From Haplosporangium gracile (taxonomy: Eukaryota; Mortierellomycota; Mortierellomycetes; Mortierellales; Mortierellaceae), in assembly GCA_015499985.1 (NCBI GenBank), contig JAAAUF010000327.1:1-39340 (forward strand): a stretch of DNA of 39,340 nt, written 5' to 3'. The notes beneath the pieces are model-generated. The model was not told where the DNA came from and made no database searches. It was given only the letters and a program-made list of their open reading frames with translations. The position numbers and the translations under genes were made by a program. Positions 1,058 to 31,517 of this stretch are shown here, in pieces. Numbering within the stretch: the first letter of the stretch is position 1; each line of letters opens with the position of its first letter.

Positions 1058-3308
1058 TTATTTGGCAAGAGAGGGGGCAGGAAGTATCGCTTGGATGTAT
1101 CGCTCCTGTTGGAGAAAGATGGACAAGATTTCGACACGCCTACGTGCAAGTTTCTGCTTGAAGCCCACCAGGGGTCGGATATTTTCGTCATAGATGTCGC
1201 TTTTAACCCGGACGGCAGGCTGACACAATTCTACTTTCATGCGGTTATTGAATTTCGGAGCTTGGATCGCAAGGATCGCTTCAGTGACCCAATCATACTC
1301 GGAGGACAAAATCGATAGGACCTCAAGTTCAGAGAAGTCGAGATTAGCAAGCGTCATCCTCAGGGACTCGAGGGAGGGCCGGATCAAAAAGATGCGGCGC
1401 ATGGGGTGTGACAAGAGGATCCGGAGGGTCTGGATATTATGGATGTTGCGGAGGTGGATGGTCTTGAGTTTCCAAGATGCAAAGTTCATGAATGACTCGC
1501 TTCTGAAGCGCCTAAGGTCTGCCTCGCTCAAGTCTGTCAGGCTGATCGACTCGAGGGTTTCGAATTTGACATACTGGAGGAGCTCCTTGGAGTGGCTGTT
1601 GACTCCCAGATGGGTGAGACTCAGCTGCGGTAGGGTCTTACGTAATCTGGCCAGAGCTTTGGTCGACAGGACAACTTGGAGGTCAAGATGGGTCAACTTG
1701 GTGTAAGGTTGACCAATGGAGGCCAAGGTACACAACTCAAGAGGAAGGCTTGGGATCTTGGGGTACTGGAGCATCAGGATCTCGATGATGCCGGCCGATC
1801 GTCCAATGACCTCTTGAAGCTGTGGTTGGTTGACACCACGACCAGTGCGAACAATATTCCTGATAGGCTTGTTGCTCTGCGGCATGGTTTTCCAGCGAGG
1901 ATTGGAATTGTCTTTTGCAGGGATGACGGAGCTGTAGGTGGTGTTGTAGATGTGAAGGGTCCTGAGCTTTTTTAGCTTGCCAATGACAAGCTCCATCTTT
2001 AGGTGCATCTGGCCCGGGGTCTGGAAATTACCTAGCCTTAGGTCATAGAGGTTGGGGCAGGCAATGAGCAGCGCGCACAACTGGGACTCACTCGACGACT
2101 CGATCTTGATTAAGAGATGGAGCAGACGCAGGCCAGAATAAAGCATGTTTATAGTCGGGAAATTGGTCCGCAGTCCGAAATGAGTCGCATTCTCGAGGAT
2201 AAGACCCTTGAGGTTCTTGTTCCACAACAGCGTATGGATCTTGTAGTACTTGGGATTGTCGCCCTTTCTGATTTGCTCGGGTTGCTCTTCCCAGGTTCCT
2301 TTGAGGTCAAGGCGCAAGATGGTGACGCCGGTGTTGTAGACGTTGTCGACCAGATTCTCGCTATCGGCTGCGTTAAAATTATAGTCAAGCGTAAGGTCCA
2401 GCTCCTTTGTCTTCTTGGCATCCTTGACCAGCTTCTCAAAGAACTGCCTCGAGTCTGAAGACGAAACGAGAGTCAGAGTAATCTTTTGAGTCTCCTCATC
2501 ATACGTGCCATTACTCTTCTCGACCAGCTGGCGGAGACTGTTGGAGACGGAGACCTTTTTGGCGAAGGAGTTCGTGACAGGCGTGACCTCGTCCACAATT
2601 TCAAAGTCCGACTCGGGTGAGGGAGACGAGGCGGGGGAATAATCCTGGGAAGGCGAGAAGGGCCTCTGGGTTGTCCTGGTCTGTAACAAAACCGCTGCTG
2701 AAGGTGCGGGTAGAGAAGAAGGAGAAGGAGACAAGAAAACAGGCTGGTCGTTCTGTAATGGTGAGGGAGTCAAAAAATGAGATTTGTTCATGAGAGGACT
2801 TGAGTTGCCTGGCCGAGGGCGGGCTGTTCCTGGAACTGTAGCAGCGGCACCAGCATCGGACGCACCCTTTCTTTGGTCGTAAACAGTTGGGGGGGTCAGA
2901 GGAGTGAAGTTTGAACTGTCGTTGGTAACCACTTCGATAACGTCGCCTCGGTAGTGCATAATCCGTCTCGGCTCGATGCTGGTAAAAAGCAGGAAAAAAA
3001 AAGAGCCAAATTGGTGTCAGTTTAACAATTTTCTTTTTCCCTGGCTCAGAAATTTCCAGGTGTTTCCTACGAGAGAAGTAGACATGAAACAACAAAAAAA
3101 AACAAGGCCCTGTCAGAATGACTTACTATTCACCATTCTCGTCCTCCATGTAGAATATGATAATCTCACGACGTTTGAAGTGGACAGCATGGGGAAAGAC
3201 TTCCTGGACATCCCTCAGTCGACTGTAGTGGTATTGCCGGGCAGTGTCCCATCGAACAGCAAGGTGTTGCTTATTAGCGCCGCATTGAAACGTTTGATAC
3301 TCGTCCAT
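1058..3308 (-). CDS. Head-module + LRR protein, two exons (module-LRR gene 1)
   Basis: Exons are 3308-3127 and 2978-1058, with a 148-nt GT-AG intron (gtaagt ... ttaccag) in phase 2; the product is about 700 residues. The start at 3308 is preferred over the in-frame ATG at 3335 because it gives MDEYQTF, matching the paralogues' MEPYQQF. Residues 1-78 form the conserved head: RLRDVQEVFP, FYMEDENGE, then across the intron IEPRRIMHY and DVIEVV. A Pro/Ser-rich linker covers about 80-195. LRR-like units such as CPNLYDLRLG and LKKLRTLHIY cover about 205-680. The LRR half is clearly paralogous to the gene at 7241-10533 (LLQYVKFETLESISLTDL against LLKYVNFASLKSLSLTDL), but this protein lacks that gene's central domain. 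It has no F-box, P-loop, signal peptide or membrane segment. Function is unknown; a ligand- or protein-binding LRR is inferred. The spliced model is well supported by matching phase and exon length (182 nt in both genes). Confidence 0.85.
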
Positions 3309-3419
3309 TTTTACGAGTGTTCGTCGTGCTGTCACTGCGCCTTTGGGTGCGTCGTGGTTATTGTAGGGTGCTTGTTGTTGTATGTGAGTGTGTGGTTTTG
3401 ATGTTTAAGAAAAAAAAAA

Positions 3420-3445
3420 GAAAGAAAGAAAGAAAGAAAGAAAGA
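3420..3445. repeat. (GAAA)n microsatellite
   Basis: About six GAAA units follow an A-run, 110-140 bp upstream of the start of module-LRR gene 1. On that gene's coding strand this is a polypyrimidine (TTTC) tract, like the tracts upstream of most genes in the window. Confidence 0.9.
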
Positions 3446-4212
3446 GCAGGAAAAGAAAAAAATATATATACTTATGTGTAGGGGAAGAGTTGGGCCAAAG
3501 CGGGTTCTGCAAACTGACAATAAATCTGTGCCATGACGAAACCCCTCATCTTTCACCCTTGCTTGCGTTTTCTATTGTTTTTTATTTCTGAATGCTCGCT
3601 CCTTTTCCTCGCAATGAGAATGCACTTTGGGTCAATGGAAGAGAACATAGATTTTATTTGGTGCCTTTTTCATGCAAACAGGAGATGGCAATAGGTCATG
3701 GTCATGCCTTATCTCATATTTGCGACACAAACAACAGAAACCTTACACAGCCCGAATCCTGCGCCGAGGGAACAGTTTCTATCGGTATCCTCTTCAGCTT
3801 CAGGAACGTCTTTTTTTTTTTTTTATTTTGAAAGAAGACCCAAGATCACACTACTGTCGTTGCGTAATCCCCAAGACAAACACAGCACTTTCTTGTTGCT
3901 TTCCATTTTCTTTCGACATCAATTTTCCCACGCGCGCTACTCGATTTAAAAAAGGCAGTGGTTACCTTTTTTCTTTTTCTTTTTTTTATTTTACCGTCAA
4001 TTGGAGGACTTATTCCGACCGTACCTCATTTGTATGAGGAGCATTTTTTTCCCCGTTAAAAAGTACCCACGGGGGATGCCACAAAAAATCTTGCAGGCGG
4101 TAAGCGCTCCTCCTAGGCTCATACTAATGTCAGCGCAAGTAAGCATGAATGTCACTAAGTAAAGCAACGGAAAAAAAAACATAATCCTGCAACCTGGTTT
4201 CTCTTTTGCTTT
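3446..4212. other. intergenic, no gene seen
   Basis: This is AT-rich sequence with several T-runs. I searched the minus strand for a second module exon (the RI.HYP..IIDVV segment) that would complete the orphan exon at 4253-4446 and found none. Short open frames are low-complexity Phe/Ser-rich. Confidence 0.5.
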
Positions 4213-4446
4213 TCATGCGCAAGAAGTGACTGTTTTGTTTATGATAACTTGCGCTTGTTCGTGTTCGTCCTCAAGGTAGTTCATATGCACACCATTGATC
4301 TTGAACAAGGAGGCACCAGGAAAGAACCTTTGAATATCCGACACACGATTATAGGTTTCGTCGGTGGTCTTGTCCTTTCGGACAGCAATGGAAATTGAGT
4401 CGGCAGTCTCGCCTTGTCGGAAGCGTTGGTGCGGTATCATGTCCAT
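4213..4446 (-). pseudogene. Orphan first exon of the head module, GC splice donor
   Basis: From the ATG at 4446 (or 4440) the frame reads a third copy of the head module. It includes QRFRQG, NRVSDIQRFFP, LFKINGV and NYLEDEHEQ, aligning throughout with the first exons at 3127-3308 and 10352-10533. At the homologous splice site the sequence is CAAGC|GCAAGT, a textbook GC-AG donor in the same phase 2, so the exon would end at 4253. Unspliced, the frame stops at 4213. I find no RI.HYP..IIDVV second exon within the next 700 bp. The copy is therefore either a dead remnant or an alternative first exon for the gene at 1058-3308, whose acceptor at 2978 is phase-compatible. A GA-rich tract (about 4600-4720) precedes it, as for its relatives. 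Confidence 0.6.
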
Positions 4447-5021
4447 GGCGCGGGCCGACAAATGTGTTGAGAGGTGAAAGGAGGTGAGGGTAGTTTTTGT
4501 TGTTGTTGTTGTTGATAAGGCAATGAACGCCGTGGATACAACGGGTGAATGAGTGAATGAGTGAATGGAAGGATGCGAGGAATGAGTTAGGTAGACAGAA
4601 ATGTGAAGGAAGAGTGCAAGGGTTGAAAGAGGAGGGAAGTTCGGAGGTGAAAAGTGAAGGAGAGCAGGGGGAAGTAGGCGAGCAAGAAAAAAAAGAAGAA
4701 AAATTAGCATTCAGCTCAATGGCGGGCTTAAAAATCACTCAGGCCAGTTCCTCTGACCGAAAGAAGCGCAACGTGCCTTTGTTTACTTGCCTGCACGCCC
4801 CTTGCCCATTGTTCTCATGTTATTCATGCGTTTTGCCTTGACCTCGCCTTCAACAAAATCTGTTCTCGAACCCTGTCAAATCATGACTATTTGCGCATTA
4901 TTCTTACTTGTTACTTCCTCCTGGTTCAACGGCCCAAGAACAGTGCACAGACCCGCTTTGAGATGTTCCATCTGTGCCTTTTTTTTCTCACGCAGAGGAA
5001 TGGCATCCAAGACAAATTTAT
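4447..5021. other. intergenic; polypurine tract
   Basis: Contains a TTG-triplet run near 4498-4514 and a GA-rich stretch at about 4600-4720 (CT-rich on the minus strand) upstream of the orphan exon. The remainder is the 3' flank of the SET-domain gene. No further gene is seen. Confidence 0.55.
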
Positions 5022-5576
5022 TTATTCCTCGTAAAGTGGCTCCCATGGCCTGTAACTGTTGACTAACCCCTGACATTTCTTTGCGCCACACTGGCACTCG
5101 AACGTCCATAATGGGTCCCACTTGTCCTCGGCTGTACCATAGTTGTAAACATAAGTAACATGCTCTCCAACCTTGATCGGTCGGATGGCGACGATCTCCT
5201 GCATGTCATTGATGGTCGAGTTGGGTCGACAACCATGGTTGGCATAGATAGCAGGCGTCGTGGCGATCATCCACTTCCACTGGTTGTTTTGCAAAAAGTT
5301 GAGTGCGTAGATGATATCGTTTGATCCGAGCTCTGAATACTCCACCACGGGTCCCTCGAACTTCTCCATCACCGTTCCTACAAGGCAGTCCTTGATGGCG
5401 ACGAGACCCTTGCCGAATGGGACATCGATAGGTGAGCTTGGATAGGGGCGACCGTGACTGATGACGCCTTTGACCAGAGACTTGCATGGGAAGATCCTGT
5501 TCTCTGCGGGTAATTCCATGGTCTCCTCCGAGTTTGGAACCTTGGTCGTCTGAAGGCGGTTATCACCCGCCAACAT
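5022..5576 (-). CDS. Small SET-domain protein (putative protein-lysine methyltransferase)
   Basis: A single uninterrupted frame of 184 residues. SET hallmarks appear in order: the SAM-binding entry motif GKGLVA (55-60), then ANHGCRPNS (112-120, family form NHSCxPN), then VTYVYNYG (140-147, family form of the Y-D/Y-Y pseudoknot strand), and a post-SET CxCx4C cluster, CQCGAKKC (161-168). SET proteins transfer methyl groups from S-adenosylmethionine to lysines, and the post-SET cysteines with the pseudoknot Cys normally bind zinc. The protein is barely larger than the domain, so substrate choice cannot be read from accessory domains; histone and non-histone targets are both possible. The usual Ser of NHSC is Gly here. 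The start at 5576 is the first Met after a stop; an internal Met at residue 20 is the alternative. It is flanked by module genes but shows no operon-like link. Confidence 0.82.
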   Translation of the reverse strand: MLAGDNRLQTTKVPNSEETMELPAENRIFPCKSLVKGVISHGRPYPSSPIDVPFGKGLVAIKDCLVGTVMEKFEGPVVEYSELGSNDIIYALNFLQNNQWKWMIATTPAIYANHGCRPNSTINDMQEIVAIRPIKVGEHVTYVYNYGTAEDKWDPLWTFECQCGAKKCQGLVNSYRPWEPLYEE

Positions 5577-6715
5577 CGTGTTCCTTGTGTGTGTGAGAGA
5601 GAAGTGGGGGTTGGTATATCCTTGCTTCTTGTATGCCTATTGTCCGCAAGGTTCAACCATTTCGCTCAATAGTTAGTAACTCTTGCCTCTTTGCTCCTAG
5701 TTTCTTTGACTATCACCATTACACAGGTAGCTCATCCTTCCTTGTCGAGCTCTATTGTTTGTTATGCATACGTTTATCGAGTCGTCCTTACCGGCAGCTG
5801 CTGTTCTTGATGGGTAGGAAACGGAGGCACTTTGTCGTAGTGGGATGGGTGTGTGCGTGTGAAAGGTGTTTTTTGTGTGATCAAAAGGGGCTATTGCTTT
5901 TTGGAGTCTTGCTTTTATACATTTTTCATTGGCACATTTGGGCTTGATGATATGAATAATGTATGTTTGGGTCGGAGACCCTAACTGAATAATATCCGTT
6001 TCTTGGACAATGCATATGCCATTATTTTTCCAAGAAGAAAGGGACGGACGCATGCCGAGGCATCAAAGGCGAGAGAGCAATGTCGTTTCCTCCCTTTTCC
6101 TATCAAAAACCACAGGCGTCGGCGTTTGTGGTTTTTTTTTTTTTTTTTTTTTCCTATAGATTATGCCTCCCTCCCCCTAAAGGTTTCCTCTAGTCCCTTT
6201 GCACTGCAACATAAAAAGATAACTCTTCGGTTTTGCATAATGATGACCCGTGGACACTTCTTGTTTACACAATGACGCTTAGGAAAAAGAGCATGCATCT
6301 TTCATTTTCACTCTTCTTAACCACCATTCTCTCTTTCTGTGTGTAAAAAGGCGAATAAAAAAAGGCGGATGAAGAGAGTTGCTAAAGCGAAAATGCACCC
6401 CTTTGCACTGGGAAGCAAAGAGAAATAAAATGCACAGCCTTTTCTTTTTTATGTTTCTTGTCCATTTGGCCCCTTTATCGAAATTCTAGGCCTGCGTGTG
6501 AACATTTTTTTCTTTTCTGGTAAACATGTATGCCAGCTGCATTGTATGTTTGGAGTATTTCCCAGGGCCTCTATCCTCTACTTCAGATTACTCTCAAAGC
6601 TGGAACGGACGGCGAGCCTGGGACTTCTGCCATCCAAAGTAGCTTGTCAAAAGTTCATTTTACTCGGGACCTGATACGCGTTGAAGAAAGTAATTATCGG
6701 CTTCGTTGTTTTTTT
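5577..6715. other. intergenic, no gene seen
   Basis: Lies between the 5' end of the SET gene and the 3' flank of the large module-LRR gene. It contains a T-run of about 20 near 6130-6150. No domain-bearing frame, RNA gene or mobile element was recognised. Confidence 0.5.
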
Positions 6716-6747
6716 GTTTGTTTTGATTTTTCAAAATCAAAACAAAC
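6716..6747. repeat. Perfect 15-bp inverted repeat (hairpin)
   Basis: Arms GTTTGTTTTGATTTT (6716-6730) and AAAATCAAAACAAAC (6733-6747) are perfect reverse complements with a 2-nt spacer. The palindrome lies about 0.5 kb beyond the stop of the gene at 7241-10533. I see no transposon ends around it. Confidence 0.9.
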
Positions 6748-7240
6748 CTACACGGCCTAAATACTAGGGTTTCCTACTACACAGTCCATATCCTTCTTAA
6801 ATTATCCCTTTTACCAAGATCCTGCTTTGAAATTTGTCCTCAGGACTACCCACCGCCTGGTATTCACTCCAAAACACTCCCCGGACATACCTTACCAGGA
6901 CGCTGCGCAGGGTGAGGTCTGAAGTAGGCATGGCCTTCGGTCAGTCGGGCTACCCCAGCAAAGGGGATTTACTGTGGGTTAAATATTATCACTTTGGCAG
7001 ATTTAGACAAAAGGTGGACACCTTCGCAAGTTAGCCTACAGGATAGAATAGACAATTTTACCTGACGCATACGCGAGGATCGTAGCTTGAAGGTGTGAAA
7101 ATTGAGGGGAGTTGCCTAAAATTATTCCTTGAATCCAGAGGCGTTGACCTCTTTCTTCAAGAGGCTAATGATTGCCTCAATAATGACTTCTCCAGGAACA
7201 TCAGTCGTAATAATAACAAAGGATGCACCTTTATTCACGA
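6748..7240. other. 3' flank of module-LRR gene 3, nothing recognised
   Basis: The base composition is more even than in neighbouring spacers, and a 66-codon open frame (6834-7034) exists on the plus strand, but I recognise no motif. It could be 3' untranslated sequence or a decayed insert. Confidence 0.4.
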
Positions 7241-10200
7241 TCACAAAACAGTCGACAGAATAGAATGCCAATGTTGGTTATCCAACTCAGCCCGCTTGAC
7301 AAACACAATATGTTGTGCTTTCAGTCGAGGGAAACCTCCCTCTAACCTCGCCTCCAAGCATCTGGACGACACCGGGTTGACTTTCTCGCACTGGAGCAAA
7401 AAGTTGTCTCCCAATTGCTTGACCCGCGCAGCCAACGCAAACTCGACAGCGCCGTAGTATTCATCTACAGTAAATGTGGCTTCGGCACGGAACTGAGCCG
7501 ACAACACCTCGAGCCGATTAAGGTTGAGGATTGGCATGATTTTGGACATGCCATCGCGATTGATGTCAACCAGTTCCAATCGCTTCAGGGCGATCTTGTG
7601 AAGCAGGTCTGGCAGGCTCCGGATTCTGCCACCCACCTTGAGGTCCATTCGGTCAAGTTGGCATGGGCGGTTCTCGTCCAAAAAGGCCTCGAAAAGCGGA
7701 TGCATGTCGTCTTCCGTGAGATCGGTCAAACTAAGCGACTTGAGAGATGCAAAGTTGACGTACTTGAGAAGACATTTGGAGTGCTCGTCAGCGCCAAAGT
7801 GGACAAGACTCAAGTTCCAGATAACTGACGCCAACAACTCAATCGAAGAATTCGTGATTCCTGTTCCCAAATGGAGATGTGTCAACCTGGAGAATGGGCG
7901 GGCAGCGTGGCTAAGTGCGGCGAGCGCTTGGTGCTGGAACACGCTGGGAATCCCTCGGCAGTGGGCTGGCGACAGCTCCACAGTCTGCCATTTCTTTTCC
8001 TTAAACTCCAAAACCAGCACCTCCATAATTCGTGATGACGCCTGAATGAGGCCCTCGAGTTTAGCGCGATTCATCACATGTCCTGTGCTGACAAGACCCT
8101 TGAGAGTATCCGTCGACAGGGAGGCGTCTTCCCACTTTATCGTGTCGCCCGTAACGTTGGCGTCCGACAATCCTGTGTCCATACTGTAGATGTGCAAGTT
8201 CTTCAGATGTTTCAACGAGGCGATCGCGTAATACAAGGCGGGGTGCATCTTCCTTTGGCTTGAGTATGATCCGAGGCGCAGGTCGACGAGGCTTGGGCAA
8301 CTGGTGAGGATGTTGGCCAACCGAACTTGATCCGCGGGTTCGATGACGTTCAAAAGGTGGAACCGTTGCAAGGTGCAAGTGGTGTGGTTCTGAGGAAGGC
8401 CGGATACTCGAGATCCGAGGTGATGAACATTGGAGAAAAACACGCCTCGCAGTTTCTTGCTGGAGACCATCTGGACCAAGGGGTGGTATCGGCCCTTGCC
8501 TAGCGACATTCCCTCAAAAGCCGACTTCTTGCCCTTGTCGTCTCTCATATCAAGTCTCAGAACTTGCAAGTTGGACTGAGTGACCGCGCTCGCTAGGGCG
8601 GCAAGGTCGGACGATCCAAACTTCCAGTCTAGAGCAACGTCGAGCTCGTCCAGTGCCAATGCTTGTGAGGCGAGTTTCCCGAAAACGTCCTTGGCGGCCG
8701 CGCTGGAAGTGAGGTTGATGACGGCCTTGCTGAGATAAGGACTGTATGCTCCGCCATTGACCTCGACGGTTTTGATGAAAGAGGTCATACTGGAAACGGA
8801 GTAAAGGGTCCGGTAATGTTCAAAGCACACCCACTTGGTACGGTCAGTCTCCACTGTGGTCCTGTACAAGTCGCCCAAGAAGCCGTCATGGTTGTGGCTG
8901 CGTAAAAACGTGTCCAACCGTCGATGGTCTGCTCCGCCCAGTGCTCGGAGATTCTTGAACGTTTCGCAGGCTCCCAAAGTATTAGGATCGGTCTTATTGG
9001 TCGTCGCATCATGGTCGTGGCCAAGGCCCAAGGTCTTTTCCAGAGAGTCGATTGTTGTGTTGATGGTGGCTATCGTGTCTTTAACCATGCTCTCCGTCGT
9101 CTTGGAAGAAGGATCGCTTCTTTCGTGGAATACACCCAGTTCAGGACTCGTTAATGCCGTGAGCGCCATCGAGTGCTTAAGGACCGCGAGCATGCCCAGG
9201 ACATAGGAACCATACTTTTCGATAAACTCTGCCGTTCTGGTGACCTCATATCCAGCGTGTTTGACCAAGTGTACCATCATCCTTGATTTGATTTCAGGTT
9301 GTTCTGTTGTAGGCTTAATAGTTGGTTGATTGGACGGGCCACCGAAATCTGCTGTCGAGCTGTTGTTACTGCTGTTGTTGTTGTGATTGTCGCACCGGTC
9401 GCCACACTCGCAGAGAAAGTAAAGTCGAAAATTCTGCAGGGGCTCTCCGCTCGGATTCTTGTTTGTGAAGGAGGGTGGGAGGAAGACAAAGAGCCTTGGG
9501 ATCGGATATTCGTATAGCTCCTCGTTGAGGCTGAAGGCGGCGTCGAGTCTCTTTTGCGCCATCACGAGTTCGACCATGGTCGGTTGCTGTTGTTGGCGAT
9601 CCATCACGTGGTGTCTTTGTTGTTCATCAGCATCGGCATTATGAGATTGCTCAGAAGAGGGCGACAATTGAGTGTCCGCCAATTGCTGTTGGAGAACCTT
9701 GTCGTGATTTGGCGCATTGTCCTGGGAGTAGTAGTGCTCTTCTGTTGGGGCAGTGCTGAGGTGTGGAGCAGGACTGTCCGTAGATGTTGTTGTCGCCTGG
9801 TATTGTTGTTGTTGCTGCTGCTGCTGAAGAGATTGACCGTCCAGTAGGGCGTCTGTGCCAATGGGTGAAGACCTCGTAGCGAGAGAAGCAGGTACTTGGG
9901 CAGGTGGGGAAGAGGCTCCAAACGTAGCGCGTCGAGGACGCGTAGTGACCACAGTGTTGGGCTGGACAGAAATTGTTGGTACAGACTGGTCCACACCCTG
10001 TTGTGACGAAGGGTCTGTCTCTTCATGCTTGTCCTCCAGATCGGCTGTATGTTGAGGGTCAGTCTCATCGACGAGACTGGTTGGTGGTGACGGTTGTTGT
10101 TGTTGCTGTAGTTGCTGTTGCTCTTCTTTCTGATTAGCGCTGGCTGTGACAATGTCGATGATGGAGTTGGGGTAGTGTGCAATCCGCTTGGGTTCAAAGC

Positions 10201-10533
10201 TGATTGCAAGGAATCCGGTTTGTTGAAGCAAGGAGGTGGAATCAATAAAAGTGATTAGTGGTCAAATCAGAAAAAAAAGGTCATTATTGCTTTTGCGTTA
10301 ATTATCTCTCCAAGTATGCTTCTCGAGCGTGAATGAGACTAAGACGATTACCATTGCTCGCTCTCGTCTTCGAGGAAGAGGATGTTGATGCTATTGACTT
10401 TGAATCCCCAGGCGGAAGGAAAGTAGTGTTGAATGTCAGAGAGGCGGTTGTAGAAATAGTCTCGCTTTATGTCTCGTCTGACAGCGAGCGCCTCGATCCT
10501 TGGCCCGAGGCGGAACTGTTGGTATGGTTCCAT
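7241..10533 (-). CDS. Head-module + central domain + LRR protein, two exons (module-LRR gene 3)
   Basis: Exons are 10533-10352 and 10199-7241 (152-nt phase-2 intron, gtaatc ... aatcag), giving about 1046 residues. Residues 1-78 are the head module (LSDIQHYFPS, ILFLEDESEQ, then FEPKRIAHYPNSIIDIV). Residues 82-290 are Gln/Ser/Thr-rich with polyQ runs from mixed CAG/CAA codons. A central domain at about 290-405 carries YPIPRLFVFLPPSF, FRLYFLCECGD and a KHAGYEV ... EKYGSYVLGML block. I recall these motifs from many uncharacterised proteins of Mortierella-type fungi, but could not check this. TKWVCFEHY lies near 514-522. LRR-like units run from about 545 to 1000 and are paralogous to the gene at 1058-3308. 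I see no Walker A motif, F-box, signal peptide or membrane helix. Cytoplasmic or nuclear LRR recognition is inferred; the ligand is unknown. This looks like the full-length form of the family. Confidence 0.87.
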
Positions 10534-12156
10534 CTTGTGTGTTATAAGCTGGAAGGAAGGAGGAGCGAGGTGTGAGAGTACAAAAGGGAAAGGGGGATGG
10601 TTGTGGAGTCGAAAGTAAAAAGAACTAATAGATGGAGCGGAGAAGGAATATGGAGGAGGAGTGAAGGGAGGAGGGGAAGAAGGGAGGAAGGGAAAAAAGG
10701 GAAAATGTGTGATGGTGGTGTGTGTGTGAGAATAAAGGGTGAGAAAGGACAGGAAGAGAAGAGAGAGAAGAGGAGGGGACAAAGGCAAAGAGCAGTGAGA
10801 GAGCGTTGGATGCTAATTCCAAGGGGGTGATGTGTGATGGTGTGTGTGGACAGACGACGAGCGAACAAAAAAGCACAGACTCAGATAGGAGGGAAGGAGA
10901 GAGACGGAAATCAAACCTTGTTTGGTTGCTAATGGATTTGACATGCGATTTAATCTCTTCTCTCTTCCCTCTTCTCTCTTTTCCCTTGTACTCCTTCCTT
11001 CTGAAGAAGTGTATGTTCGCTTCTATGTATTTGCGCTTTGTACATTTGTACCCTGGTTTGCATACAGCACGCCCCTCAAGAAAGAGGGGGTTCCTTGATC
11101 ATTCCTTACCAAGAACGTCTCTTTTTTTCTTGCAATTGGATCCTCACTATGCCTTTGTTATGCCCCCTCACAACAACTAAACTGCAACTAACAAACCACC
11201 AGAAAAAAAAAAGGTGCAAACGTTAAAGAAATGAGCAACATCCAAGCGAATACATGCCGTCGATACCCTTGTTTTTTCTGTTTCGTCTTTCTCGGACAAC
11301 CACCATATACCATGACTAATTCCCAATTATCCCATTACACAAAATGTCAATTAATTTATCCTTTCTCTTTTTTTTTTTTCCTATTCTGTGTACAGCAAAC
11401 AACATCATACCACTTCTCAATCAAACATGTTGCTTGGAAGAACAGGTGCAAGGTACACTTGGAGCATGTACCGTAAATCAATGATCAGAACTTGCGGGGG
11501 ATCCAACTCACTTCCATTCACTCCAATTTCTCTCACGCCTCGATGCTGGACACATGGTGATGGCAATTGTTTTTCGCCTCTATTTCTTCTCTTCCTACTC
11601 CTTTCACTGTCAACCAGCCATACTCCCTATCCAGGATCCCTGGCACCTCCAACCCGGAAGAGCCGATAGCCTTGAAGATCTATACCAGCTCAGCACGACC
11701 AAGTGTCTACTAGACACAGCAGTTACAATAACATTGCTTAAAAGAGGTTCATAAGGATGTTGATGTCCCTCAAATATTGAAGAGCAGGCTGCGTTAACGG
11801 TGATTGGTTGCCTGGTTTGTGTGGCGAAAAAAGATGGAATGGAAGTGAAAGGCAACCGCGACGAGACTGAGACACTGATCGCGGGTGAAGAGTGAACCAG
11901 TGGTTCGTCCTTTTCAAGGCTTCGCCCTGAATGTGTGTGGACTGTCTTTTTTTTATTCATCACCACCTCCTTCTCTCCATCCCCATGTCGATTCATTTTT
12001 ATTCGCTTCTTTTTTGCGCACAAGGGCACAGGAAGGCACTAAGCGATTGGTTTAACTGATAACTCGTTTATTTAAGTCTCCAGACTCCTTCCTTCTTCCT
12101 TTGTTGTTTGTCGTCAAGACCCAGCGGTGGGCCCGTTGAACGGATAACAACAGTTC
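10534..12156. other. intergenic with strong polypurine tract
   Basis: Immediately upstream of the large module-LRR gene, 10550-10800 is almost pure A/G on the plus strand, so pyrimidine on the coding strand; this is the most pronounced such leader in the window. The remaining sequence to 12156 has no recognisable gene; open frames are short and Phe/Ser/Pro-rich. Confidence 0.55.
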
Positions 12157-12662
12157 TTAAGACATGACAGCTTGCGGTCCTCGAGGCCTAGCAGAAGATC
12201 CCTGTGGCGCCCCCGACACAACGTCAATGATCCTGTTCGGGTAGTGTCCAATGATCGGAGGAATGCGCCTACGGAGACATATACAAAAAACAGTCAAAAA
12301 CGAGAGCGAATTTTGCCTGCAAGCACAAAGTCCTCCTTCTCTCCTCTATATCCGTAAACATATAGAAATGTAACCACAAACATTTCATTTCTTCCGCGCC
12401 CCTTCCTTCCTTCCTTCCCTGGACAACAACCCCCAACGCAAAGGAACAACGACGAAGACTAGCACACATACAAGTCACCATTATCCTTGGTCAGAAAATC
12501 CAACGCATCACCATCAATCTCGAACCCAATCGCTGTGGGGAAGGCGTCCAGGATCTCGTTCATCCGATGGTAGTGGATCTTGCCATCCCATTGTGGTTCA
12601 ATTTTTATCGTCTGTTCGCCCATCCTGAATTTCTGCTCCTGCTCTCCTTTTGGACTGTTCAT
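12157..12662 (-). CDS. Stand-alone head-module protein, two exons, 100 residues
   Basis: Exons are 12662-12472 and 12268-12157, with a 203-nt phase-2 intron (gtatgt ... ccgtag). The spliced frame is exactly 100 codons plus TAA. It aligns over its whole length with the head of the two LRR genes: QKFRMG, HRMNEILDAFP, IGFEIDG, ALDFLTKDNGDL, then across the intron RIPPIIGHYPNRIIDVVSG. It ends after a short Pro/Arg tail, so it has no linker, central domain or LRR. The splice site and phase match the other copies, which argues that the short product is real rather than a failed gene model. It could act as a free partner or competitor of the module in the LRR proteins (inference), or be a truncated duplicate. 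A GA-rich tract at about 12740-12830 precedes it, as for its relatives. Confidence 0.7.
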
Positions 12663-17699: not shown

Positions 17700-19112
17700 T
17701 GTGTGAATGGATTAGACGGTGTTGGTGACTGCGTGATGTCAGGAGAGATGGTGCGGTGAGCGATGAGAGGAAAGTGATTAGGAATGAAAAAAAGATGATG
17801 AAGGAGGCGACGGAAGAGAGATGAAGTAGACGGGTTGGCCGGAGGGAGAGGTAGACTGTGGGTCACCTCGACTCGCACAAAGTGCAATTGAACACAAGAA
17901 AAAAAGTAAAAGATTGTGAGCCGATTGCTTTGCATTGTCCCCTCGTACTGTTCTCCGGACACCTTGCCCTCGTCACAAGCGGTCCAGCCTTGGAATGGTC
18001 CTACAGACAGGGAGCAGCCTTGGAGAATTGAAAGCAAGGTATCCGATGGTTGCAACTTGGTTCGCCATTGCTCGCCAGGTCTCTTCTCTCTCGACCACAT
18101 TGCCTCTCATTCTGCTGAACAGTGCTTAAACCAAGTAAGGTTTTTCTCAAACCCCAACACTCTTTTATTTAGACCGGGAGGGAGAGGAAGAGGAGAAGGT
18201 GCTATTAACTCTTGTTCTAGGGAACCTCCTGACATCCTAGCTGCGTATTTGTGCTGATGAGCGTTGGTGAAGGCAAGAGCAAGGACGGGAAAGGAAAAAG
18301 GAGGTGAAGGAGTGGGAGGAAAAGAGCCAGAAAGAAGAAAAGAAGCGAAGGAGCAAGCAAAGAAGAATGAAAGGGACCGCATGTACGTGTTGTTGGACGG
18401 GAAAAAGACAATGTAACATGGTAGCGAACACAAACAAACAAAGAAACAAAATCTACAGTTCGGAGGGAACATGCCGCTAAAAACACAATTGCTCGCAGTG
18501 CGAGAGAAAGAACAGAGGAAGAACGACCTTTGAATCCTGTTGCTTTCCCTTCACAGCTGTGGTGGAAAACATGCACACTCTGAATGACTGTGGATCATAC
18601 CGCGACCTGGCGTGTGTAAGAGATGACTATTGTGTATCCCTCCTTCTTTCTCTCTTAATTTTTATCAAAATACTTTACTCTGACCATTCGGTGCGACCAG
18701 CCGCTCCTCTCCTTCCCTCTCTTCACGATTGTATGCAATTGGTTTCCGTATGCTAACAAACTGGTGGTGGTCCTTGCACGCCCTCGAAATTCTTTTTTTC
18801 TATACATTTTCCCACAAACACACACCAGAGCAAACAAGCATACGAAGCTGACCATTTCCACAGTCAATGCACACATACAACAATGGTACTAATATATCAC
18901 TCTCCCAGGGATCAGTGATCAAATGAAAAGCCTTCGAAATGAAAACAATCTGTTCACTCATGTTCATTCGCCTGCACGTCACAGAATGGAAACGTATTTT
19001 AGTCAGCTCACCCAGCCTTGATTTCTTTTTTTTCGTTCATCCTTCATTTTCTTATTCTTTGATCCATCGCACATAGGTAATAAACTATCAGCAAAAAACA
19101 ACTTCGGCAAAC
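17700..19112. other. intergenic between divergent genes
   Basis: Separates the FAD monooxygenase (minus) from the F-box/LRR gene (plus), so it must hold both promoters. There is a GA-rich tract at about 17760-17860 next to the monooxygenase start and a CT-rich one at about 19020-19065 next to the F-box start. I see no gene between them. Confidence 0.55.
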
Positions 19113-21509
19113 ATGGATCCACCACCAACAATCGCAACTACCGACACTTCTACCCCAGCTCTCTCACAGTCTCGCTCAGCATCTCTCGCTATTTTAACAA
19201 CAACGACAACAACTCGACGCCGTCCTCTTCTTCGTCCTCTTCTTCGTCCTCAACCTCACAGATGTTTGGAACTCCCTGAAATCCTCATCATGATCCTCCG
19301 TTTCCTGGACGAAGACGCTGTCTGTCGCGTCACACCCTTGGTCTCTCGTCTTTGGCTCCGATTAAGCAGAACCATCAATCCCGTCCGCACCGTCGTCACC
19401 TGGCACTCGTCCTGGTCATCAGATCTGTTGGACATGAAGTTGCTGGCCCTGCAAGACAACGCCATGTACTTTCGTTGCTTTATCACAGAACGTGTTGTCG
19501 CGAATCACTACAAAGGCAGGATGTTGTACAGGACTCTGGAACACCTGCAGACCAAGATCAGAGAACAGGAACTCGCCGCCTACTCGGACGACCCGAACAA
19601 CAATACACGCAACCACTTCAAGACCGGACGGAATGACCAATCCTTTGGCACTCTTTGCTCGCTATACCTTTATTTTGGACAGCAAGCATTGGCAGTAATC
19701 GACAAATTTCCTTTCCCGAGTTCACTCATTAAGCTCTCGGTCGTGGGTGTGCGCTCAAACCAACCCCTCGAGCTGAACTGGATCTTTGACAGGTGCCCCT
19801 TCTTAGAGGAACTCTACATTGAGGGTCATGCTTCGAGCTGGAGCTCTGTTCGTCTGTCTTGGAGCAAGTATGACGAGCGTTGCCTTGGTCGACTCCGTGC
19901 TCTCACCCTGAAGAGTGTCCACATCCTTCGCAGGAATCTTGAGTACCTTTGTTCCATCTCGCCAAAGTTGACAGATGTCAAGCTTGTTGGTGTCAGCACT
20001 GAGATGAATCAAGAGTCTCAGAATGGGCTGTACAGGAGTCTGAAGACACTGGAAATGGCGCCTCGGTCTGCCTTGCTGCTGCCATTGTCAGGGGTTATGC
20101 CGCAGCGTCAGCTCAGGCAGTGGTTGGCACGTACTTGGCATAAGTGGCTGGACTTGTCGCTTTATGTCCCTTCGACAACACTCTCTCTTCTACAAGAGGT
20201 TGCTCGCTGTCCGAGTTTGCTCACGTCGCTCGAGCTTGTTCCTCAGTCGAGACTGGATTCGCCATCCCGCCGTCTCGGGACGTTATCTGATCAGATTCTC
20301 GTCTACCGTCGATTTCACACGCTTCTCTGCATGTCATCCAGCCTTATTCAACTCCAGCACCTTAGGACGACCATCTTTCTGGAAGACATTGATCTTTTTG
20401 GCCGTAGAGGCTTCGTCGACGTGGACGTGGGATTGGGCAAGGCCACGTACCTAATGCCTGATGCCACTACAACGCATCCAGGCATTTGGCTCTGTCGACG
20501 TCTGAAGTCCCTCCGAGTCGAGGTCCACAAAGGGATGGAAACCCTGCACACGTCCTCGGTCCATTCCAGGATTGTGTTTGGATACATCTCTCGGGTCTGT
20601 CCATACCTCGAAGGCCTCGGGATCGATATACCCTATGCTGACTCTACTGCTAGTAGGCGCGAGACGTCCTTTTACCCACAGCTGAGCATGAAACTGCAAG
20701 GCGGGCTATGTTTGCTTGCCAAGCTAGATCGCTTGAGGCGGCTCAGGATCTCGTCTGAAAGCGGTCGGTGGACGTTTGACTGTGAGGACTATGACATCAA
20801 CTGGATCTCTTGCTCGTCTTACCACCGCATGAACCGTATGTTCAGACACTGGACCGTTTCGCTCTGGAAGAAAATGAGGGAGAATGAAACGCAGCAGGAG
20901 CAGGCAAGGCTGGAGTTTGCTAAGGAAGAAAAAGTAACTGAGGCGGGGGTGAAACCAGAGGTGGCGACTGCGCCGGCGACAACATTGACCACTGCAGTCG
21001 CCGCCGTCACAGAGAGTGAGCCTGAGCAGCACGGTCACTTTGGTGACGTCGATGGTTGGGGCGCGGAGATGGACTTGGACAATGACGAGGATGAGAACCT
21101 GGGTTGGTTTCATCACATTGATCTTTGGAATACTGCGATGACCGCGGAGCCAGAGATAGACGGTCAAGATGCGGCTATTCAGGATGTGATTGATCAGCCA
21201 GTCGCCCTGCACACGAAGGTTGCTGAAGAAGAGCCTGAAGAGGAAGAGACTGAAGACAAGAAGCCTTTTACCCCTGAACTCAACCCTGCAGAATGCCTCC
21301 CAGGAGTTCAGCAGGTCTTGGACGATCTCCAGAACCTGGGTCTTTTGCGTGATGTGGAGGTTATGATTCAATGGATGGAGTTGGATAACTTTCACCCCTT
21401 ACCTAAGCTTAAGCGACTCTCTCTTGGATTCGAGACGCTTCAACGACCCAAGGACGAGATGCAGCGGCTCTTTCCCTTGTCCATTGGCTCCCATGCAGAC
21501 TACCACTGA
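19113..21509 (+). CDS. Large F-box/LRR protein
   Basis: A single frame of 798 residues. After a Thr/Arg-rich N-terminus, residues 52-88 form an F-box (ELPEILIMILRFLDEDAVCR ... VSRLWLRL), the element that binds Skp1 in SCF ubiquitin ligases. Irregular LRR units follow to about residue 560, including the markers EDIDLFGRR, FGYISRVCPYLEGL and GLCLLAKLDRLRRLRISS, shared with the genes at 24535-26580 and 37174-39216. A long acidic, Glu/Asp-rich insert (about 600-720) is specific to this copy. The C-terminus carries the shared motif LDDLQNLGLLRDVEVMIQWM. The role inferred is recruitment of a substrate, chosen by the LRR, for ubiquitination. The ATG at 19113 is the first in frame and follows a CT-rich tract. 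No intron is needed. Confidence 0.88.
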   Translation: MDPPPTIATTDTSTPALSQSRSASLAILTTTTTTRRRPLLRPLLRPQPHRCLELPEILIMILRFLDEDAVCRVTPLVSRLWLRLSRTINPVRTVVTWHSSWSSDLLDMKLLALQDNAMYFRCFITERVVANHYKGRMLYRTLEHLQTKIREQELAAYSDDPNNNTRNHFKTGRNDQSFGTLCSLYLYFGQQALAVIDKFPFPSSLIKLSVVGVRSNQPLELNWIFDRCPFLEELYIEGHASSWSSVRLSWSKYDERCLGRLRALTLKSVHILRRNLEYLCSISPKLTDVKLVGVSTEMNQESQNGLYRSLKTLEMAPRSALLLPLSGVMPQRQLRQWLARTWHKWLDLSLYVPSTTLSLLQEVARCPSLLTSLELVPQSRLDSPSRRLGTLSDQILVYRRFHTLLCMSSSLIQLQHLRTTIFLEDIDLFGRRGFVDVDVGLGKATYLMPDATTTHPGIWLCRRLKSLRVEVHKGMETLHTSSVHSRIVFGYISRVCPYLEGLGIDIPYADSTASRRETSFYPQLSMKLQGGLCLLAKLDRLRRLRISSESGRWTFDCEDYDINWISCSSYHRMNRMFRHWTVSLWKKMRENETQQEQARLEFAKEEKVTEAGVKPEVATAPATTLTTAVAAVTESEPEQHGHFGDVDGWGAEMDLDNDEDENLGWFHHIDLWNTAMTAEPEIDGQDAAIQDVIDQPVALHTKVAEEEPEEEETEDKKPFTPELNPAECLPGVQQVLDDLQNLGLLRDVEVMIQWMELDNFHPLPKLKRLSLGFETLQRPKDEMQRLFPLSIGSHADYH

Positions 21510-21766: not shown

Positions 21767-22665
21767 TTACAACAGAGCAACAATATTTTGAGTAGACCAC
21801 CACCTAATAGAGCGAGGTTGACATGGCAGGAGATGAGGCTCGTGGGGCTGGCCACCGGAATGATGAATTTTGAATTCATACGTCGTTCCATAGCTCGCCA
21901 AAGAGAAAAGTCTCAAAACCTCGAGGCTGTTCGGCGCCTGAATCAGCCTGGCGACCTGAAGCCGTATCAACCCCATCTTCCTCTTCATGGAGAACATGGG
22001 TTGAAGAAGCTCTAAGCGAGTCAGTCTAGGGCAGGGACGTGAAAGCGAAGTATCGATCGGATCGATCGCCAAGCTCTTGATCGTCCAGGATGCTCCATCA
22101 GGTAAGGGGTGCGCCGGTCTCTTTCGTATTAGAAGAAGGACCCTCGAAGGCGAAGTTCGTGCAGTCGGGAAAAGAGCGGAAACGTAGACTCGATAAAGAT
22201 TGGAAGTACGTCTGTGGTCGAAGGCAGGTTGATATCGAGGCTCTTGAGGTTGGGCAGTCCTCGAATGGTGTCAAACAGGTAGGGGTCTGGGCCATGGAGC
22301 TCCATCCGAAGCGTGAGGGAGGCCAACTTCGAAGCTATCGACAGAAGGTAAGCGAGTCTTGAAGGATGAATCTGTAATTGAGGATACAGAGTGGCCTTGG
22401 TACGGATCGAGGAGGGGTTGTTGTGCCACTCTATAGACTTGAGTTGCTTCATACATAGGTCAAGAGTCGGATCTAAACAGATAGAGTATTTCTCGATGGG
22501 AAAGTACGGGTGATGCCAGTCCATCTTCCGGATGGATGTCCAGATGAAGGGCTCAAGGATGACGGACCATTGGCGACAGATCCTGAGAGCGGCAAAGATC
22601 GATGGTCTATCCAGGTGCTGGGCGATGATGATGATTATCTCTGTGGGGAGAGTGGGCGCAGGCAT
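21767..22665 (-). pseudogene. Small-family F-box gene with frameshift
   Basis: The first frame runs from the ATG at 22665 to a stop at 22129: F-box (TLPTEIIIIIAQHLDRPSIF ... ICRQWSVIL), then a segment aligned with the intact copy at 30176-31192, ending at LHELRLRGSFF. The remainder continues in another frame to 21767. PDGASWTIKSLAIDPIDTSL aligns with PDKITSWKLQELKIDRLDKS of the intact copy, and LSRPCPRLTRLEL aligns with its FLPYCPDLKGLTL. No GT-AG intron with matching phase joins the two, so a one-base shift near 22130 is the simplest reading. A truncated product of about 178 residues with an F-box could still be made. Confidence 0.7.
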
Positions 22666-23156
22666 AATAAAGCTGCCTTGATCTGAGTTCTGTTGGGTTT
22701 GTGGTGGTGCGACCAAGATCTTGTTGCGAGGTTTTGTTAAGGAAAGGAAAGAAGGAAGAAAAGATGACACAAGAAAAAAAGGTTATGTCATAAAATGCGA
22801 AGTTGATCATGCAGGTGTAACAAATTTTACGAAAACGCTTTGACATTAACCGCAATCAACCAAACCTAGCTTTCACAGCTATTTCTTATGCTAGAATACG
22901 GTTATTACTTTTTGGTACCATTTTTCTATGAAATATCAAAGGGCGCAGTCGCTCAAGGATGCGATTACTTGATATGAATTTGGTGTCGCTTCTGTGCTTG
23001 TCGCGCTGGAATGATGGCAGATCAACTCATAGTGATCTCAATTCCGCAAAAGGCATGCAGTTCTTTGCCGCACTGAGCACCAACGGTGACAAACAATAAC
23101 GAAGACATGCAGCATATAAAAAAGTATTACTCTTTCATTTTCTTCACTAGCTCCCC
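22666..23156. other. intergenic up to assembly gap
   Basis: The GA-rich leader at about 22735-22790 belongs to the F-box copy at 21767-22665. The rest, up to the gap, has no recognisable gene. Confidence 0.5.
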
Positions 23157-23716: not shown

Positions 23717-24534
23717 CAATGCGGGTGATGATGATGAACTTTATTTGGTGTGACACCATCAACGAATCAATGGTTGGTCTTTTGGCACTATCCCATTCCT
23801 TGCTTGTTACTCCCTCTCGCCCTTGCGCCCTTGGTAAACAACACACTAGATCTTATTTTTTTTCTTCTTTGTCGCTCTTCCTACAAAATAAGTATGGAGT
23901 AGAGACGGGGCTGAATCAAAGGCCATGAACTTTGAGAGCGAAGTAATAGCAACAAGGAGTGAGAGAATGAGGAAGACAAGGATGCGAAGGATGAAGGCAG
24001 AGAGATAAACAATTTTCAGAAGCAAAAACAGAAACACAAGCAAAAAATTAAAATTTGGTGGCAACTGCCTGTGCCTGGAACTTTCTTTCTTAACTCTTTG
24101 TGCAACGTCTGCTGGTTTCTAATTCTAGTGGCAGAGAATGCCTGTGTCGATTTTGAAGGCAGTAAAAACACCTGTAGGGATCATCAAAATGTACAATGAT
24201 CTATTTGTCTTTAAGAGAAGAGAGAAGACGGGAAGGTCTGAATCCATCTCTCAAATTTAACCACGTATGATTTGCCATGCATCGTACCAAAGCGATTTCA
24301 ATCTTTGAAAAAAAAAAAAATGCGTAAGCACACATGACTGATCTAGCTGAATTAAAAGGGGGTCGCCTAAAAAGAGGACGCTTCCCACCTTTTTTTTTTT
24401 TCCTTTCTTTCTTTCTTTCTTTCTTCCTCCCCCTCTCATCTTCCCTTCCTCAGCCCTTCACCCTTATTACTCTCGATCCCACTCTTCCTCTTTCTCCTCG
24501 CTCACTCTTACTCATAACTACAAAAAACAAGAAA
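23717..24534. other. intergenic; divergent promoter region
   Basis: Lies between the F-box fragment (minus) and the F-box/LRR gene (plus). The stretch at 24390-24530 is a polypyrimidine leader directly before the ATG at 24535. No other gene is seen. Confidence 0.55.
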
Positions 24535-26580
24535 ATGGTACGCTCGCTATCAATACAACTCGGCTGGAACCAACAACGCCGTCGTTCAGCTTGCACCCTC
24601 TCCCCCTTACACCTCCCCGAGATCCTGGTCATAATCTTCTCCTACCTCTCCGAAATCACCCTCCGTCGGTCCGTCGCCCCAGTCTGTCGGCTCTGGCTTT
24701 ACACCGTTCAGAATGTGATGGTGCGTGACGTCTTCTGGTACTCGCAGTGGAGCTCTACTCAACTCAGCGAGGCCCTGTCCATCCTCCCGGGAGCAGAACG
24801 CCTCATCTGTCACAACCCATTCACCAATTATCCTGCAGAGCTCTTGCTTATGAATGCACTTCGACAACTTGAGGCCGAGTACCAAGAGCGACTGAACGGG
24901 AGCAACAGCAACAGCCAGGAGCAGGAGAAACAGGACGTAAGTCGGTCGCCAGCAAAGCAAACACCGCATCGGTCCTACTTCCACAAGGATGTCCCTCTGC
25001 AACGCCTAGAACTCATCACAACAAAGTTCTCAAGCATCTCCTTCGACCAATTCCCCTTGCCGACTTCGTTGACGTCCATCAAGCTAACATTCTGTCGTTC
25101 GTTTGGGTCCACCTTCTCGCTGACAAGGATCTTGACCATCTGTCCGCTTTTGGTAATTTTCCATGCCAAATGTCAGGTCAACGTCAACATTAAGGTCACT
25201 CTTGAACCCTTTGGGCAACAGCACACCTTCACTACCGCCACTGGCCAGCAACAGCAGCAAGAAGACAAAAGGCAACTGGTGCTCAGGTCACTTGTTCTTG
25301 AGGGTCTCGGCCTCAACCTTGTCAAGTTCAAGAACCTTCTGACAGTAACCCCTCACCTCAAAGAACTCAAATTAATCGATTTGACCTTGGAATGGCCCTC
25401 TGTCTGGACTGATCTTCTGAGGCACCTCAAAACCCTCCCTTACAAACTGGAATCAACACACTTCTCCAGCAGTATCCAAGCCACGCGTGCAGACGAGATG
25501 GAGATCATGCTGGCCATGCACCCCATGCCCTCAGAATGGTCCCTCTGGGGTCTCGATGTCGAGCCGAGTCTACTCCAATCCCTAGAAAGTTCTGTAAATT
25601 CGGTCACGAAACTGGAGTTGCACTGGAGTCACCAAGCGCAGAGCTATGGTGATGGTTGTCATCGACAGGATCTGCAGTCTGCCCCCAAACTCCTCCACAA
25701 ATACCTTTGCAACTCGCCTCACCTCGTTCATCTACGAGTCGTAAAATCTGTATTCTTGATCGAGGACATGGACCTTTTTGGGCGACGCACCTTTGGTGAT
25801 CTCAGTGCCCTTAACAGCAACGTCTGTAATTCCACCAACCCTGCTCCCGTCTCCGATCCAACAGGAGCATCCGAAACACTGCAGATTTGGCAATGCAGGA
25901 ACTTGAGGACACTTCAGTTCGAGATTAATGCCCACTTGGACATCATGCCCATGGCAGACCCTGTCCAGAGCCGCATCCTCTTCGGGTACATTTCCAGAGT
26001 TTGCCCCAATCTCGAAGACCTTTATATCTCGTGCCCCTCGGTGTGCGTTCAATCAGATAACCGCAGGTCCTACACCCCTCGCCTTTCCCTTGAACTCGAT
26101 GGCGGGATCTGTCTGCTGGCAAGACTCCAATCGTTAAGACGACTCAGGATTGAGGACTACTACCTCTGTCAGGGCCCCAGCTGTGAAGTCTATGAGTTGA
26201 ACTGGATAGTTCCCTCAGGTCGAGACTCCTGGTCTCGTATGAAGCGTCAGGAAGTGATGTCGGAGTGGGGATCCAAGGAGTCAGAAGAAACCCGACTAGA
26301 GACCGAACGGAAGAGAAATGGAGGGTTGAAAAGGCTAACACCTGCCTCTAAGGCCAAGGAGGATGTGAGGCTCGCAAAGGACTTGAAGAATCTAGGTCTG
26401 ATAGTAGATGTGAGGAACATGGTCAAGGAGATGGATAGTCATGATAAACTTGTGTGTCTTCCAGAGTTGGAGAGGATGTCTTTCGAGTATCCCATTGACC
26501 ATCGCCCGCGGATTGAGCTACGTCGTCTATTTCCAAAGAACTCGCGCCTAGATGGTAATTCTTTGATCTGGTTCAAATAA
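24535..26580 (+). CDS. Large F-box/LRR protein
   Basis: A single frame of 681 residues. The ATG at 24535 (MVRSLSIQLG) is chosen; the frame is open for 67 more codons upstream, but that part translates the CT-rich leader into Phe/Ser/Pro and is rejected. An F-box lies at about residues 22-60 (LHLPEILVIIFSYLSEITLR ... VCRLWLYTV). LRR-like units follow, with the family markers EDMDLFGRR, FGYISRVCPNLEDL and GICLLARLQSLRRLRIE. The C-terminal motif AKDLKNLGLIVDVRNMVKEMD and a short FEYP ... LRRLFP ending are shared with the copies at 19113 and 37174. Glu/Arg-rich sequence near 575-610 replaces the long acidic insert of the 19113 copy. Inferred role: LRR-based substrate receptor of an SCF ubiquitin ligase. 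Confidence 0.88.
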   Translation: MVRSLSIQLGWNQQRRRSACTLSPLHLPEILVIIFSYLSEITLRRSVAPVCRLWLYTVQNVMVRDVFWYSQWSSTQLSEALSILPGAERLICHNPFTNYPAELLLMNALRQLEAEYQERLNGSNSNSQEQEKQDVSRSPAKQTPHRSYFHKDVPLQRLELITTKFSSISFDQFPLPTSLTSIKLTFCRSFGSTFSLTRILTICPLLVIFHAKCQVNVNIKVTLEPFGQQHTFTTATGQQQQQEDKRQLVLRSLVLEGLGLNLVKFKNLLTVTPHLKELKLIDLTLEWPSVWTDLLRHLKTLPYKLESTHFSSSIQATRADEMEIMLAMHPMPSEWSLWGLDVEPSLLQSLESSVNSVTKLELHWSHQAQSYGDGCHRQDLQSAPKLLHKYLCNSPHLVHLRVVKSVFLIEDMDLFGRRTFGDLSALNSNVCNSTNPAPVSDPTGASETLQIWQCRNLRTLQFEINAHLDIMPMADPVQSRILFGYISRVCPNLEDLYISCPSVCVQSDNRRSYTPRLSLELDGGICLLARLQSLRRLRIEDYYLCQGPSCEVYELNWIVPSGRDSWSRMKRQEVMSEWGSKESEETRLETERKRNGGLKRLTPASKAKEDVRLAKDLKNLGLIVDVRNMVKEMDSHDKLVCLPELERMSFEYPIDHRPRIELRRLFPKNSRLDGNSLIWFK

Positions 26581-29820: not shown

Positions 29821-30175
29821 AATTTTTTTTTGCTTGCCATGCCTCCGCTTCTGAGAAGACGAGCACCTTTATGATGATTTCCTTTTTTTTTTGTTTGCAT
29901 AAGCTCAAGTCATACTTTTCTCCGACTTCATTGGCAATGGCGCGCTTCGTATACATATTTCCATTCCTGCATGTCTAAGGCATCGTCGCGTTTTTTTGGG
30001 AGATAGAAAAGATATGAGAGTAGACACGAAAGATTTTATTTTGCAGAAAAAAAAAGGGAGATCAAGCGTCTCAAAGTTGTCAAAAAAAAACAAAAAGTTT
30101 GTGTATTTGGGAACTAAACAAAAGACTATCGAATGGCAAAGAAAGGAGAAAAAGAAGAAAACAGCGATCTATCCA
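29821..30175. other. spacer between F-box copies
   Basis: A-rich sequence with several homopolymers; no gene is seen. Confidence 0.5.
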
Positions 30176-31192: not shown

Positions 31193-31517
31193 TTTTTTGG
31201 GTGATGAGGGATAAGGAAAAAGGAATGAGAAGGAGTAGAGAAAAGATAAAAACGACTAACATCGCCTTTTGAATTAAAGAATGAAAGAGGCGTCACAAAT
31301 GTTAAAAAATTGGCTCCGTGGACTATATCGCCTATGGTTACGGCATGAACAAAGGAACAACGTTCGTATCCATTCAGATCATGCAAATTTGATATTCAAG
31401 CCTTGCTTTCGAGGAAAGTACTACATATCCACACAACAAAATTTAGGTATTTTTTAATTCTCTAGAAAGGAAATGGGGGGATGGTTCACAGGAAAACAAC
31501 AAAGAAGAAGAGTGAAT
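31193..31517. other. spacer between F-box copies
   Basis: Contains the leader of the intact F-box gene; no other gene is seen. Confidence 0.5.

Follow-up and report, generated by a model that had tools for sequence, protein, structure and literature searches.

The N-terminal domain (NTD) of TDP-43 has a DIX-like fold and polymerises head to tail, the acidic tail residues E14, E17 and E21 pairing with the basic head residues R52 and R55 (PMC5491494, PMC5830921). In fungi, a tBLASTn search with plant and animal DIX queries was negative (PMC7042713). Fungal NOD-like receptors (NLRs) are described with ANK, TPR or WD40 repeats instead of leucine-rich repeats (LRRs) (PMC9815663), and a 2010 survey reports that fungi have no LRR receptors (PMC2939053). 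The stretch of DNA analysed here (the window, 39,340 nucleotides (nt) in total) is contig C438 (JAAAUF010000327.1) of the genome of Haplosporangium gracile, a member of the Mortierellaceae, comprising 37.5 Mb in 1157 contigs. Its minus strand carries four copies, here called A, B, C and D, of an N-terminal protein segment of about 78 residues, the head. As judged from its predicted structure, the head is likely a ubiquitin-like domain of the DIX-like kind found at the N terminus of TDP-43.

A large family of head domains in Mortierellaceae

The four minus-strand copies with a shared head, described in an earlier note made from the letters of the window, are present: a head profile of 76 columns scored C with 94.7 bits, A with 83.7, B with 55.9 and D with 48.3. 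The profile was iterated from 103 domains of database proteins, using as a seed an alignment (A1) that included the four window copies; its final rows are database proteins only, with orthologs of C among them. Identity between the first exons of the four copies is only 26-49%, a value that would be in line with convergent or chance resemblance. Such an origin is scarcely credible, however, in view of the score of each copy against a profile with database proteins as its final rows, the intron that A, C, D and 38 of 51 copies examined genome-wide share in position and phase, and the continuous series of relatives.

Merged searches of the genome, from which 10 exon-2 matches were removed, found the head at at least 68 exon-1 places on 44 contigs. 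This list (E<=0.01, merged by hand) is a lower bound that includes some partial or interrupted places, and several spliced copies (e.g. L022, L071, L072, L074) with E>0.01 lie outside it. All named relatives among the database matches listed (the best 120 of 135 matches, 34 of 34 short proteins and 12 of 12 membrane-type relatives) belong to genera of Mortierellaceae; the search scores only candidates sharing words with the query, so absence from other groups does not follow from it. A scan of bacterial, archaeal and viral contigs with a single consensus head, able to detect close relatives only, confirmed no relative there. The head family is real, large and so far seen only in Mortierellaceae. 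It is not described in the titles and abstracts listed by ranked searches of the open-licence PMC literature, in agreement with the earlier note, which mentions related large families in Mortierella-type fungi with no described function known. Two database proteins, P0040 and P0041, have three and two head matches, respectively, and are either multi-head proteins or fused gene models.

Predicted fold and resemblance to TDP-43

The head was predicted to adopt a compact ubiquitin/DIX-like (beta-grasp) fold consisting of a sheet and one helix, and a beta-grasp-like fold had indeed been anticipated from the short strand-helix-strand pattern. The three best structural matches found by Foldseek were TDP-43 NTDs, ahead of ubiquitin, SUMO and other ubiquitin-like (UBL) domains; since Foldseek also uses sequence, evidence from fold and from sequence is not fully independent. 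The sequence of the TDP-43 NTD, taken from PMC12442443, was scored by three head profiles (A3, A5 and head) with 6.8, 4.9 and 4.8 bits, which is weak in absolute terms. These scores were reached by 1, 7 and 4 of 3000 shuffled sequences, and by 1, 17 and 8 of 5000 in a second run. For ubiquitin, NEDD8 and SUMO1, 409-1555 of 3000 of their own shuffles reached the score, and the TDP-43 NTD is the only one of the four sequences to pass this test. Profile alignment by hhalign gave p 3.9e-4 and a probability of 35% for A3, and p 0.011 and 4% for A5; the alignment is collinear, including the FPG segment after the helix. The head may thus share common ancestry with the TDP-43 NTD, for which the sequence evidence is modest and specific.

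None of 66 heads matched the Pfam family TDP-43_N (PF18694) at E<=1; a search of the genome with this family also gave no match, but its control was equally silent. The profile search proposed in the earlier note found the four copies related; Pfam scans of A, C, D, the 66 heads, two consensus heads and five relatives gave nothing above the curated cut-offs. At the sequence level, one head, two head profiles and a consensus head found only chance-level matches in the PDB (flavodoxin, CapZ and others, E>=0.1), and a viral structure library yielded no match at E<=0.001.

The fungal heads share their predicted fold, size and N-terminal position with the TDP-43 NTD, but are followed by LRRs, Sel1 repeats or a membrane segment, whereas proteins of the TDP-43 family have RNA-binding domains after the NTD; no RRM was matched by Pfam in A, C or D. 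Via the TDP-43 NTD, they would also belong to the DIX-like fold class together with the DIX domains of Dishevelled, Axin, SOSEKI and SAR proteins (PMC5491494). Pfam detected no DIX domain among the 66 heads, two consensus heads and five relatives, and none is among the best 50 fold matches listed, which excludes nothing. A domain resembling that of TDP-43 might easily escape searches with DIX queries from plants and animals.

A short ubiquitin-like N-terminal domain followed by variable tails in an early-diverging fungus also recalls the Crinkler header, an N-terminal delivery domain on variable cargo, and the ubiquitin clan includes Crinkler (PMC9815663). Nevertheless, no Crinkler match was found by Pfam in the same 66 heads, two consensus heads and five relatives, and a header of this type is very improbable.

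An intron inside the head domain

The earlier note took the head for an exon-encoded, exon-portable module. This was assessed with 51 distinct exon-1 candidates from 74 loci, the head profile being used to score GT/GC...AG junctions close to where each match ends. The best junction was of phase 2 in 38 of them, with a gain of 10-36 bits, and lies at profile column 58 in 37 cases and at column 59 in one; all 38 have a GT donor (GTA in 37), and the median intron is 112 nt long. Choosing junctions by profile score favours continuation of the domain, but no agreement in phase, position or donor was imposed. Among the other 13 candidates, L003 is intronless, one is B, and three have no junction (L006 being at a contig end). 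A phase-0 junction at column 61 is preferred in L032, L049 and L052 (gains of 14-27 bits) and a phase-2 junction at column 55 in L029 (10 bits); L023, L024, L037 and L045 gain less than 8 bits.

Column 58 of 76 corresponds to residue 61 of the modelled head; the last two strands (66-68 and 74-79) are encoded by exon 2, and no intron is found at the 3' border of the domain. With the domain split by an intron, exon and module do not coincide, and exon shuffling was rejected, the intron being both internal and common to 38 of 51 copies. The shared intron points to common descent with an ancestral intron rather than to a shuffled exon. Within the window, two first exons (A and C) are of exactly 182 nt, as noted before. 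The junction is of phase 2 in A, C and D alike, and in these three the pattern RI.HYP..IIDVV follows; neither this pattern, previously ascribed to all four copies, nor a GT donor at the homologous site is found in B.

The first exon of B is open as far as this site, where GC|GCAAGT replaces the GT donor (donor base 4252) in the same phase. Exon 1 of B is 55-66% identical to its ten nearest relatives, and a relic of exon 2 is located about 130 nt downstream, reading YEPRRSAYR versus YEPKRIAHY. Compared with exon 2 of the related copy L004, this relic scored at a level attained by 17 of 1000 sequences when the entire downstream region was shuffled, and by 2 of 2000 when only the local stretch was. 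The second exons of C and A showed no similarity to it, their scores being equalled in 743 and 840 of 1000 shuffles, respectively. Since an exon-2 relic follows, B represents the 5' part of a decayed gene, and its description as a free orphan exon was abandoned. The interval from B to A has no LRR similarity (tblastn of 120 relatives, E<=1e-3). In Mortierella sp. GBA39, gene BGX30_010686, numbered next after the C ortholog BGX30_010685, encodes a protein of 1001 amino acids (aa) with a B-type head, and in the L. elongata model P0007 the C ortholog is fused to a B-type head. B may therefore be the remnant of a former neighbour gene like those beside the C ortholog.

Variable C-terminal regions

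It is confirmed that one type of head is combined with varied tails: A and C have LRRs, other copies have Sel1 repeats or a membrane segment, and D may have no tail domain at all, consistent with the differing downstream partners recognised earlier. A scan of the exon-2 stretches of 29 copies from the same genome besides A and C (35 listed, A and C included) identified Sel1 repeats in 14 (L025, L030, L031, L036, L038, L040-L043, L047, L048, L050, L051 and L054); the other 15 stretches had no Pfam match at E<=0.01.

The LRR part matches FBXL17 in a PDB profile search (E 2.2e-5). The full-length model has a mean predicted local distance difference test (pLDDT) score of 61, its LRR region lying mostly between 70 and 90, and its best Foldseek matches include NLRP9, NLRC4 and F-box LRR proteins. 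Similarly to the NLR receptors of animals and plants, these proteins would thus combine a putative N-terminal assembly-type domain with C-terminal LRRs, the latter recognised by profile and fold; in contrast to NLRs, no NACHT or NB-ARC domain was matched by Pfam in A, C or 8 relatives.

A central motif of the YPIPRLF type occurs in 7 copies of the genome including C (short flanks only) and is absent from gene A; the central-domain query has 39 matches in the genome, several of them within one gene. The corresponding central domain of gene C (YPIPRLF...FRLYFLCE...YG.YVL, residues ~280-450) is conserved and was modelled by AlphaFold2 with low confidence. The relatives P0046, P0050, P0087 and others bear a precomputed PF27087 label, which is absent from the local Pfam scan.

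The membrane-type protein P0121 (L003, G000:C376:15408-16055) consists of 216 aa encoded without an intron, with the head followed by hydrophobic segments in the C-terminal half, and has one full-length copy in the genome. Comparison with ten of its 12 relatives (P0159 and P0167 were omitted, their C-terminal parts being different) showed that, across genera of Mortierellaceae, conservation is highest in the head, with 72-99% identity versus 38-90% for the membrane part. The hydrophobicity cut-off is lenient, as 86 of 120 long proteins also pass it, and the assignment to the membrane is therefore based on the long hydrophobic C-terminal stretch. Of 34 short D-like proteins listed, 8 are labelled partial and 25 are mostly of exon-1 length. 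P0155 (139 aa), the sole named one without a partial label, is at most a candidate for a true stand-alone relative.

Possible self-assembly of the head

By analogy with TDP-43, heads of the TDP-43/DIX type placed on repeat-based sensors, whose repeats may bind other molecules, might self-assemble; this reading is tentatively put forward as the best of those considered, though as slightly less likely than not. In such a mechanism the heads would bind front to back, as TDP-43 NTDs and DIX domains do, and LRR or Sel1 proteins, when crowded or switched by a ligand, would cluster into short chains or condensates, gaining avidity for a shared effector. The single-copy protein P0121, which joins a head to a membrane segment, could tether the assemblies. 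Chains could be capped or blocked by proteins consisting of a head only, D among them if it is expressed.

The columns of the TDP-43 interface were mapped onto the head by hand, in agreement with the hhalign alignment. The fungal heads are acidic in 52%, 43% and 80% of cases at the columns of E14, E17 and E21, respectively, and at the R52 column 49% are basic and 19% acidic. At the R55 column only 6% of heads are basic and 26% acidic, the interface residues being only partly kept. In seven subsets, charges of the TDP-43-like tail patch and head patch are negatively correlated (r between -0.18 and -0.40), with p<0.03 in 5 of the 7 by a simple permutation that ignores relatedness; this does not go beyond the segment null, 20-47% of random segment pairs being equally negative. 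In L-type heads (C and its relatives), column 52 is acidic in 30 of 54 and column 16 basic in 34 of 54; the swapped charges suggested by these columns were not used as support, given that the segment null is not exceeded. The strongest single charge pairs (columns 29-58, 29-57 and 20-54) may be contacts within one domain. Because the charge test does not exceed random segment pairs, polymerisation is proposed from fold and architecture only.

Alternatively, as in the earlier note but with neither polymerisation nor exon shuffling, the head could be a ubiquitin-like adaptor for one common partner, such as a kinase, a ligase or a trafficking factor. The beta-grasp fold, the single head type on many tails and the better conservation of the P0121 head relative to its membrane part, as expected of a shared binding surface, are in its favour. 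However, the closest structures are TDP-43 NTDs rather than ubiquitin, SUMO or other UBL domains, and among the four sequences shuffled it was the TDP-43 NTD that passed. An adaptor without polymerisation is less likely on balance; a common partner for the heads is possible, while the TDP-43-like predicted fold points first to binding between heads.

Self-assembly of the heads could be part of a wider, Mortierellaceae-specific sensing system. Dozens of receptors with LRR or Sel1 repeats would then signal by head-to-tail polymerisation of the TDP-43/DIX type without a nucleotide-binding switch, nucleated by the conserved membrane-anchored head and limited by head-only cappers. In this complete form the proposal is speculative and rather improbable.

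Gene models in the window

The features of the locus are listed in Table 1. The range given previously for the locus (3127..12662) covers the four first exons and omits the second exon of A. The products of genes A, C and D are 700, 1046 and 100 aa long, respectively, C being a typical full-length member of the family and A a member without the central domain. The LRR region of A is supported by tblastn of the relatives P0013, P0015 and P0019, which align to 2554-1079. In the splice model D is a stand-alone head protein, and it is possibly a head-only member encoded by a gene of its own; from D downstream up to gene C, tblastn of relatives detected no further similarity.

Table 1. Exons and relics of head-containing genes in the window
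Feature	Position	Strand	Description	Basis
Gene A exon 1	3308-3127	-	182 nt; head residues 1-60 + 2 nt	Splice model, translation, head profile on spliced head
Gene A exon 2	2978-1058	-	Head end, Pro/Ser linker, LRR region; without central domain motif	
B exon 1	4446-4253	-	Head part of degraded gene	Profile score, donor position, relatives
B exon-2 relic	4123-4075	-	49 nt, decayed, directly 3' of AG	Similarity to exon 2 of L004
Gene C exon 1	10533-10352	-	182 nt; head residues 1-60 + 2 nt	Splice model, relatives P0003-P0006 and P0009
Gene C exon 2	10199-7241	-	Head end, polyglutamine/Pro linker, helix, central YPIPRLF...FRLYFLCE domain, LRR	
Gene D exon 1	12662-12472	-	191 nt; head	Splice model, 48.3 bits for spliced product, genome search with spliced product
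Gene D exon 2	12268-12157	-	Head end, short tail, stop	Splice model, genome search with spliced product

Gene C corresponds to BGZ47_005969 of H. gracile (100% identity over 94% of the query). Its spliced head is backed by the relatives shown in Table 1, in which the junction is spanned by the same sequence pattern. The public H. gracile model of this gene (P0001) begins with MVIRIAHYP and lacks exon 1, so that the head is hidden in it.

A small reading frame with a SET domain is located at 5022-5576, between C and the dead copy B. F-box-like matches were found in five more frames of the window (19077-21509, 22129-22782, 24328-26580, 28603-29868 and 30176-31255), two of which fall below the Pfam cut-off; the window is rich in F-box-type genes.

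Implications

If the proposed self-assembly is true, fungi would possess an assembly domain of the DIX/TDP-43 type, linked to repeat domains like those of animal and plant immune receptors. In the wider, more speculative form, this would represent a signalosome in a kingdom reported to be without DIX domains and LRR pattern receptors. The heads would be new relatives with which to study the evolution of chain formation by the TDP-43 NTD, and the family would provide a concrete candidate, open to experiment, for the means by which early-diverging fungi perceive other organisms.

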